Program-made: the position numbers and the translations under genes | NCBI GenBank assembly: GCA_003222675.1 | Contig: QHWT01000059.1 | Coordinates: 51,212-115,211, forward strand | Length of the DNA: 64,000 nucleotides | Source: Acidobacteriota bacterium | GTDB lineage: Bacteria; Acidobacteriota; Vicinamibacteria; Vicinamibacterales; 2-12-FULL-66-21 | Direction of reading: 5' to 3' | Notes under the pieces: model-generated | Databases searched by the model: none | The model's input: the letters and a program-made list of their open reading frames with translations, nothing else | What the model was told of the DNA's origin: nothing | Part shown: piece by piece, positions 51,104 to 53,397 of the stretch | How positions within the stretch are numbered: the stretch's first letter is position 1 | How the letters are laid out: each line of letters starts with the position of its first letter

Positions 51104-52005
51104 CGCGGCGCACGTTTATCGCACAGGCGGTCGCCGCGGCGGCGGCACTTCCGCTTGTCCAGCGCCCCGGCGTCACGAGAACCCGCCTGATCCTCCTCGG
51201 CACGGCCGGCGGCCCGACGCCGAAGAAAACGCGCGCGGCCCCATCCCAGGTGATCGTGGCCGGCGATCGGGCCTATGTCGTGGACTGCGGCAATGGCGTG
51301 GCGCGGCAACTCGTGCTCGCCGGAATCCCGCTCGTCTCAATTCGTCACGTCTTCATCACGCATCACCATTCGGATCATTCCGCGGATTACGGCACGCTGC
51401 TGCTGCTCGCATGGGGAGACGCGCTGAAGACGCGTGTCGACACCTGGGGTCCGCCGCCGCTCGCGCGGATTACATCGCTGTTCTTCGAGATGAGCCGCCC
51501 GGATCTTGCCATCCGCGAAAGGGATGAGGGACGGCCGCCGCTCGAGCCGCTCGTCCATCCCCACGAGGTCAGGCGCGGCGGACGGCTCCTGCACGACGAC
51601 CACATCACCGTGCAGTGCTGCCTGGTCGATCATCCGCCACTGCCGATCGCGCTCGCGTATCGCTTCGACGCGCCGGATCGATCGATCGTCATCTCGGGCG
51701 ACACGCGACGATCCGCAAATCTGATCGCGCTCGCGAAGAATGCGGACGTGCTGGTACACGAGGCGCTCTACGTTGCGCGCGCGCCGGGCACGGAGGGCTC
51801 GGCCTTGCGCCGTCACGTGCTCGCGAGCCACACGCCGGTCGAGGACGTCGGCCGGATCGCAACGGAGGCCGGCGTGAAGATGCTGGTGCTCTCGCACTTC
51901 GTGCCAGGCGAGACCCCTTTGGTCACTGACGATGAATGGCTCGCTGGTGCAAGAGAACATTACGCGGGACCGATCGTCGTCGGGCGCGATCTGCTGGAGA
52001 TCTGA
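51088..52005 (+). CDS. Exported metallo-beta-lactamase-fold hydrolase
   Basis: A 305-residue MBL-fold protein with a Tat-like signal (MRPPLTRRTFIAQAVAAAAA). The metal motif is VFITHHHSDHSADYG (HxHxDH). Further ligands lie in IVISGDTRRSANLI (Asp), DVLVHEALYV and LVLSHFVPGE (His). RLILLGTAGGPTPKKTRAAPS at the start of the domain is typical of the RNase Z-like/arylsulfatase-like MBL group, here with an export signal and so probably not a tRNA processing enzyme. It overlaps the receiver gene upstream. Confidence 0.88.
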   Translation: MRPPLTRRTFIAQAVAAAAALPLVQRPGVTRTRLILLGTAGGPTPKKTRAAPSQVIVAGDRAYVVDCGNGVARQLVLAGIPLVSIRHVFITHHHSDHSADYGTLLLLAWGDALKTRVDTWGPPPLARITSLFFEMSRPDLAIRERDEGRPPLEPLVHPHEVRRGGRLLHDDHITVQCCLVDHPPLPIALAYRFDAPDRSIVISGDTRRSANLIALAKNADVLVHEALYVARAPGTEGSALRRHVLASHTPVEDVGRIATEAGVKMLVLSHFVPGETPLVTDDEWLAGAREHYAGPIVVGRDLLEI

Positions 52006-52010
52006 ATGGC

Positions 52011-52049
52011 CGCGGATGCACGCGGATGCACGCGGATGCACGCGGATGG
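52011..52049. repeat. 10-bp tandem repeat CGCGGATGCA
   Basis: Three to four copies of CGCGGATGCA follow the MBL-fold gene directly. The 10-bp period differs from the 7-bp arrays elsewhere in the window. Confidence 0.85.
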
Positions 52050-52057
52050 TGTCACGA

Positions 52058-52341
52058 GTCTCACGCGTAGGCGCAAGAGGCGCAGAGCGCAGCGGCTGAA
52101 CGTCCGCCGTGGCCGGCCTGAGGTTCCATTGCGGCCGGCCACAAGCGGGTCACGCGAGATCCGGATACGAGCAATTGATGATATGGGTGTTGCTCGTATC
52201 CGGCGTCTCGCGTGACCTGCTGCCGCGCGAAGCGCGGCACGGCGGACGTTGCAGACTCACCGAAATAATCCGCCGTACATCCGCGCAGTCTGCGGCGCGT
52301 TTTCGGTGTTTTCTCCGCGCCTTTGCCCCTCTGCGTGAGCC
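52058..52341. other. Large nested inverted-repeat (cloverleaf-like) intergenic element
   Basis: Outer arms near 52059-52086 and 52313-52341 are about 85 percent inverted copies built of CGCAGAGG-type blocks. Inside, 52099-52111 pairs perfectly with 52238-52250 (13 bp). Between these lie three more stems: GTGGCCGGCC (52109-52118) with 52133-52142; a long stem of 26 pairs, 52148-52174 with 52190-52217, loop 15 nt; and TGCCGCGC (52221-52228) with 52232-52239, loop GAA. A smaller stem CACCGAAA/TTTTCGGTG spans 52259-52308. It fills the gap before the dioxygenase gene, with no open frame of interest. Confidence 0.85.
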
Positions 52342-52437
52342 GTACGTGGACAAGTGAAGAACGTTGCAATTTGGGTCACAGCCGGGATCCGACGTCACGT
52401 CGGTTGCATCTAAACTGCAGCATGCAAGGAGCACACG

Positions 52438-53397
52438 ATGCAAGGCGTTAACGGATTGCACCACATCACGGCCATCGCCGGCCCGGCGCAGGAGAATCTC
52501 GACTTTTACGCCGGCATCCTCGGCATGCGGCTCGTCAAGCGCAGCATCAATCAGGACGATCCCGGCACATACCATCTCTTCTATGCGGACGCGGAAGGGC
52601 ATCCCGGAACCGATCTCACGTTTTTCCCGTGGGCGCACATGGCGCCGCCGCGGATGGGGCATGGGCTCGCGGTGGAGGTCAGTCTCGAAGTGCCCGCCGG
52701 AAGCCTGGCGTGGTGGGGCGCGCGCCTGGAGAAGTACGGCGCGAAGATCGACGAGGTCACCTCACGATTCGGCGACACGGTGCTGCCGCTCGTCGATCCG
52801 CACGGGATGCGATTGGCACTGGTCGAAAGCGGTGCGTCGGCTCCGCGCGTGTTCGCGCCATGGGATGGGAGCCCGATTCCGGTCGAACGACAGGTGCGCG
52901 GACTCTACGGCGCGCAGATCTGGGAGCGCGAAGCGGCGCCGACGAAGGAGTTCCTCACCTCCGCGCTCGGATTTCAGCGGATCGGCGCCGAGAATGGCTG
53001 GACGCGTTATGGATTCCACGGGGCGCCCGGCATCGTGGACATACGCGAGACGCCCGATGTGAGACGCGGCGCGTGGGGCGTCGGCAGCGTCCATCATCTC
53101 GCGTGGATCGTCACCGACGAGCAGCATCAGCTCGTCGTGCGCGCGCAGGTCGAAGCGTCGGGCGGCCGCGCGACGCCGGTGATCGATCGCTTCTGGTTCA
53201 AGTCGGTGTACTTCAAGGAGCCCGGCGGCGTTCTCTTCGAGATCGCGACCGAGGGGCCCGGGTTCGCCGTCGATGAAGATCCCGCGCACCTCGGCGACAC
53301 GCTGGTCCTTCCTCCATGGTACGAAGCCGCGCGCGCGGAGATCGAACGCGTGCTCCCGCCGTTGAAGATGCCCGTCGCTGCGCACGAAACGCGGTGA
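52438..53397 (+). CDS. Ring-cleaving dioxygenase, VOC (glyoxalase-like) superfamily
   Basis: A 319-residue extradiol-type dioxygenase of the MhqO/LinE-like group, which cleave hydroquinone-type rings. AAGGAG precedes the ATG. Two VOC modules are visible: VNGLHHITAIAGPAQENLDFYAGILGMRLVKRS with its metal His (HH), and GVGSVHHLAWIVTDEQHQ with the second His. The metal-ligand Glu lies in PGGVLFEIATEGPGFAVDED. Length and order match the family. It is followed closely by pckG with a 14-nt gap. The physiological ring substrate is unknown. Confidence 0.9.
   Translation: MQGVNGLHHITAIAGPAQENLDFYAGILGMRLVKRSINQDDPGTYHLFYADAEGHPGTDLTFFPWAHMAPPRMGHGLAVEVSLEVPAGSLAWWGARLEKYGAKIDEVTSRFGDTVLPLVDPHGMRLALVESGASAPRVFAPWDGSPIPVERQVRGLYGAQIWEREAAPTKEFLTSALGFQRIGAENGWTRYGFHGAPGIVDIRETPDVRRGAWGVGSVHHLAWIVTDEQHQLVVRAQVEASGGRATPVIDRFWFKSVYFKEPGGVLFEIATEGPGFAVDEDPAHLGDTLVLPPWYEAARAEIERVLPPLKMPVAAHETR

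Follow-up and report, generated by a model that had tools for sequence, protein, structure and literature searches.

A dispersed, gene-less, and probably MITE-like element with a cloverleaf core in an Acidobacteriota genome

Most bacterial repeat families are recognized by a conserved sequence. The described systems closest to the element reported here are the prokaryotic MITEs, which have been reviewed (PMC10969869), and the many-copy extragenic palindromes of the REP, BIME, and RAYT/TIRYT systems. REPs measure 20 to 40 bp and carry an unpaired GTAG or CGTC tag (PMC3733652, PMC2817692). Y1/RAYT/TIRYT transposases, including the TIR-flanked tyrosine transposases (TIRYTs), are known from Acidobacteria (PMC3733652). 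Like prokaryotic MITEs, our element is short, gene-less, intergenic, and multi-copy, has terminal inverted repeats, folds strongly, and is matched by empty sites in relatives (PMC10969869). It differs from MITEs in that neither a parent transposon or transposase with the same ends nor a target duplication was seen, in that it is GC-rich, and in that a cloverleaf with three arms and a constant geometry forms its core, in place of a simple hairpin or of an IS remnant left by deletion. With REPs, BIMEs, and the RAYT/TIRYT systems it shares its nature as an extragenic palindrome present in many copies. Unlike REPs and BIMEs, however, it has a core of about 150 bp within 310 to 440 bp and lacks a constant tag; where CGTC is present, in some copies, it is paired within the closing stem. 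We found no such cloverleaf repeat described in the open-access literature, and the large, shape-conserved core sets the element apart from the prokaryotic repeats that we found described.

The focal copy lies in the window, the whole 64,000-nucleotide stretch of DNA that was analyzed, between an ORF for an MBL-fold hydrolase that ends at 52005 and a glyoxalase-like ORF that starts at 52438. It is intergenic and contains no gene. A first-pass annotation, made from the letters of the window, had described in 284 bp a set of nested stems with a perfect 13-bp closing stem, a three-armed cloverleaf, and an outer imperfect pair, and we recovered each of these in its place. The closing stem joins 52099-52111 to 52238-52250, and the outer pair (52060-52076 with 52323-52339, 82%) encloses the cloverleaf. 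The long stem of 26 pairs that had been placed at 52148-52217 is present and proved slightly longer, with about 31 pairs over 52144-52221 (16 nt pairing at 94% and 14 nt at 100%). The element is nearly the same as the 284-bp span, and its terminal repeats extend leftward to about 52050 and rightward to about 52360 (Table 1). Immediately to the left, the 10-mer ACGCGGATGC occurs in 3.5 tandem copies at 52012-52049. Its complement, CGTACATCCGCG, sits within the element at 52274-52285, so that pairings between the two interleave with the shell pairing.

Table 1. Parts of the focal element, in window coordinates
Feature	Position	Strand	Basis or remark
Degenerate left terminal inverted repeat of the type A shell (tgtcacgagtctcacgcgtaggcgcaagaggcgcagagcg)	52050..52089	+	Pairing with the right end; motif used to infer the left limit
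Cloverleaf core, four-way junction	52099..52250	+	Folding; covariance model R2
Closing stem, 5' side (AACGTCCGCC)	52099..52108	+	Perfect complement on to 52111
Arm 1, GGCCGGCC hairpin	52109..52142	+	Also in other oriented copies
Long central hairpin of 78 nt and about 31 bp, CGAGC/GCTCG near the loop	52144..52221	+	Fold; cross-copy length
Arm 3, GCCGCGCGAAGCGCGGC hairpin	52222..52238	+	Fold; highest sequence conservation of all parts
Closing stem, 3' side (GGCGGACGTT)	52241..52250	+	Perfect complement from 52238
Additional stem-loop between the core and the right-hand terminus (CACCGAAA...TTTTCGGTG)	52258..52310	+	Fold; so far noted in the focal copy alone
Right terminal inverted repeat of the type A shell (reverse complement = CACTTGTCCACGTACGGCTCACGCAGAGG)	52310..52360	+	Right limit inferred from other copies

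Secondary-structure prediction gave a four-way junction, formed by the closing stem of 10 to 13 bp and three hairpins, as the minimum-energy fold of 52099-52250 on either strand. Two of the hairpins are short GC hairpins, and the central one has about 31 bp. Compared with 200 dinucleotide-preserving shuffles, the fold had z-scores of -10.3 (RNA, + strand), -12.5 (RNA, - strand), and -9.6 (DNA parameters), and none of the 200 shuffles was as stable as the 284-bp element. The folding is therefore genuine and far above chance, as had been claimed for the density of the stems. Covariance model R2 scored the focal core, which is among the copies from which the model was built, at 107 bits (52103-52246, E 3.5e-20).

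The genome that carries the window comprises 7.16 Mb in 152 contigs and, like all genomes compared, is a draft assembly; copy counts were obtained from searches. The 284 bp, used as the query, returned 68 matching pieces. A search with a covariance model built from an alignment of 15 full cores resolved about 23 distinct full-length copies, besides partial and decayed ones, so the element is not unique. Because of its nearly palindromic sequence, the model hit many copies twice, once per strand. Full copies have one order of parts in common: closing stem, GGCCGGCC hairpin, long central hairpin, CGCGCGAAGCGCG hairpin, and closing stem. Over 56 copies from several genomes, the central arm measured 77.0 +/- 2.4 nt (range, 74 to 85), and toward its loop every one of the 56 carried one of six related pentamers, CAAGC, CAAAC, CGAGC, CGAAC, TGAGT, or CAACC. 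Several copies lack the central arm alone. The full copies in this genome are nearly all intergenic, and copies lie between convergent genes in 15 cases versus 8 for divergent genes.

The core is enclosed by imperfect terminal inverted repeats of about 25 to 45 bp, which form shells of at least two kinds. In type A, CTTGTCACGTACGAnnTCACGC precedes degenerate GAGGNCGCNGAG units; type B consists of AACGAAGCAACGAAGG. Allowing up to 3 mismatches, the type A motif CTTGTCACGTACGAnnTCACGC was found at 32 places in the genome and type B at 45, versus 0 for the reversed control. Since one core type is found in either shell, the element is modular. Shells of types A and B also recur in this genome as short inverted pairs without a core. 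Their terminal repeats are those of the composite elements, but the bare shells are shorter and lack the cloverleaf; they are either ancestors that received a core or relics that remained after its loss. At one place (G000:C38, about 128700-129910; L063 / L066), a complete cloverleaf element in a type B shell is locally tandem-duplicated, the copies lying about 474 bp apart. At another (L002, about 1060-1125), the left shell region holds six tandem copies of the 10-mer GGCTGACGAA, with none on the other side of the element.

Related pairs of copies were 87 to 98% alike over 240 to 385 bp, after which the similarity stopped abruptly and the flanks were unrelated. The matched stretches take up all or most of the copies and measure 361 to 376 bp for L061/L062, 368 to 383 bp for L134/L136, and about 311 bp for L088/L097. 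Two copies on different contigs are 96 to 98% identical, with the core missing from one of them. At four gene junctions, for which the gene names were read from conserved flanks and not from annotation, relatives lack some 320 to 445 bp that are present here. The ruvB/ruvA junction spans 393 bp in this genome versus 7 bp in relative G010, and the mutT-like/ygfZ-like junction spans 463 bp versus 76 bp in the same relative. The corresponding lengths are 466 bp versus 22 bp in G004 for rdgB/rph, and 371 bp versus 51 bp in G003 for the thiG-like gene and the gene next to it. Because the element is absent in several genera, insertion in the lineage of this genome is the simpler reading. The abrupt ends of the copy pairs and the empty sites in relatives thus indicate dispersal like that of a mobile element. 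Other copies were used because the same-genus genome G001 lacks the neighboring MBL gene and the element together, leaving no clean junction at the focal copy. No target-site duplication was evident by eye at ends whose exact positions are uncertain and whose flanks have diverged in the relatives.

In G001, the ruvB/ruvA junction (L290, about 1240-1417) holds unrelated degenerate tandem repeats, GGGGCGATGGGCG and CCGTGTGCGTCCGTGTG, where this genome has a cloverleaf. The copy on contig C128 has a near-identical sister on C117, and its left end carries about 35 bp that are located some 85 bp rightward of that sister (L008, about 1345-1385; L113, about 1697-1730). This stretch is a captured donor flank attached at the opposite end.

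The suggestion of the first-pass annotation that the locus could be a MITE-like mobile element is well supported by these data: many gene-less copies are dispersed through the genome, they have defined ends, and relatives hold empty sites at the four junctions. The element behaves like a MITE, but its membership in this group is incomplete because a parent transposon was not found and no target duplication was evident. In this genome, no source or mobilizing transposon with the same ends was identifiable among type A end pairs or Y1_Tnp loci, and no type A end pair stood at an IS-like distance.

We compared the pairing of the stems among copies. In the 15-copy alignment, 97% of the cells were paired, versus 85% when the 3' letters were shuffled and 30 to 44% when the partners were slid, and 21 of the 41 pairs showed double changes. 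The copies are paralogues and hence non-independent, so the effect size weighs more than the shuffle count. A one-off palindrome, which had been envisaged for a single copy without compensating changes, does not fit an element with this many doubly changed pairs and many copies.

Selection on a transcribed RNA should leave many more G.U pairs than A.C mismatches on the strand that functions. To count mismatches, we oriented the copies by the order of their arms and, under symmetric scoring, aligned every arm with the reverse complement of itself. Over about 56 copies, the stems contained 61 G.T and 63 A.C mismatches beside about 2,885 Watson-Crick pairs, whereas a control of 18 tRNAs from the fetched DNA gave 22 G.T and 0 A.C. 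The helices of the element thus do not tolerate G.U far above A.C, as those of a functional RNA would. Relative to co-directional neighbor genes, 10 copies had the same orientation and 22 the opposite one (a hand count based on a simple gene caller). A tally against the replication strand gave 20 same and 20 opposite, with a GC skew too weak for strand assignment. Rfam returned no match in the window at the gathering score, and a permissive search yielded only sub-threshold miRNA-type hairpins. The equality of G.T and A.C and the mixed orientation argue for a DNA-level feature or for purely mutational upkeep.

A structured RNA had also been proposed for the locus. A non-coding RNA, or an mRNA-borne element such as a terminator or stabilizer, that became multi-copy would account for the very stable fold on either strand, the compensatory changes, and the intergenic placement with convergent gene pairs somewhat above divergent ones. 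This reading is disfavored because A.C is as common as G.T on the arm-order strand, unlike in the tRNA control, because copies lie in both orientations to tandem genes, and because no Rfam family reached threshold; moreover, the element is missing from many genomes of the same order. We consider it very unlikely. The equal G.T and A.C counts speak for a DNA-level structure.

The main rival to the mobile-element reading is template switching at replication, by which palindromes would be grown and homogenized arm to arm, with compensation arising without function or enzyme and spread occurring by occasional ectopic switching. One study reports that template switching creates and maintains hairpins with apparent compensatory changes (PMC8794818). 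The equal numbers of G.T and A.C fit this process, and the nested layers, the one-sided tandem repeats of the outer arms, and the C128 copy, with a piece of the right flank of its sister at its left end, resemble replication errors. Template switching alone, however, leaves unexplained a central arm of 77 +/- 2.4 nt and a three-arm order kept across four families, the CAAGC-type motif near the loop in these otherwise sequence-different families, and clean insertions with defined ends. As the explanation of the element, we regard it as rather unlikely.

A search of other Acidobacteriota, which the first-pass annotation had put forward, detected related copies in 14 of 149 genomes sampled across the order, belonging to families f1, f2, f6, and f11; the f6 case (L466) is supported by folding. 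The architecture is common to the four families despite their differing sequence. In a draw of 396 genomes from the phylum, matches came from same-order genomes only. Among the matches listed in a pattern scan of public genomes, those confirmed by the model were Acidobacteria MAGs and one doubtful Acidimicrobiia contig. In the latter (L161, VFYY01000083), the fold is real, but the neighboring ORFs look acidobacterial by eye, so the contig is probably misbinned. No copy was found in same-genus genome G001, which is 88% complete. A DNA site maintained by the host, for example one putatively bound by a protein of the nucleoid or of recombination with a preference for four-way junctions, would suit the shape of the junction and its intergenic placement. 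Such a site is hard to reconcile with a sporadic occurrence between related genera, absence from G001 as assembled, and non-syntenic positions, and we hold it to be the least probable reading of all. Binding by a DNA-structure-specific protein would in itself be compatible with the data.

Transposases of the Y1/RAYT/TIRYT class are present in many of the genomes compared, and we rejected them as the partner because neither their loci nor their distribution fit. The two Y1/REP-type transposase genes of this genome carry unrelated short palindromes of the GTGACAGTCACAGTT and GGGGTCAGACCCC types (L031, about 1080-2130; L032, about 1270-1990). No Y1 locus examined was flanked by the element. Thirty such loci contained no convincing cloverleaf, the one match (in L393; 22.9 bits, E 0.009) being too weak. 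Over ten genomes, the presence of Y1_Tnp did not track that of the cloverleaf: G003 has cloverleafs and gave no Y1_Tnp hit, and cloverleaf-free genomes with Y1_Tnp exist.

The element is thus probably a non-autonomous, gene-less, dispersed MITE-like fold-back element of about 310 to 440 bp, composed of an imperfect shell of terminal inverted repeats and a cloverleaf core. The cloverleaf DNA is best read as a structure that a mobilizing enzyme recognizes or tolerates. Transposition would be catalyzed in trans by such an enzyme, with the structure acting as DNA, either as a cruciform or as single-stranded hairpins during replication. Efficient copying may be limited to copies with an intact cloverleaf, which would keep the pairing, and copies without the central arm or the whole core would be decayed relics. 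More tentatively, the order may possess an undescribed DNA-mobilization system whose enzyme reads a folded shape, namely, three arms of fixed size and a CAAGC-type tip motif, and not a sequence, with the element swapping its outer shells; we see this as a possibility, and not a likely one. If it is true, a shape-reading enzyme would allow nearly all stem letters to change while the element is still copied.

Covariation by itself is no proof of RNA structure, and a count of G.T versus A.C cheaply separates the readings. While the sequence of this element drifts, its three-armed DNA shape holds a constant size across genera and families. The element therefore lends itself to testing shape-directed DNA mobility against the upkeep of palindromes by template switching.
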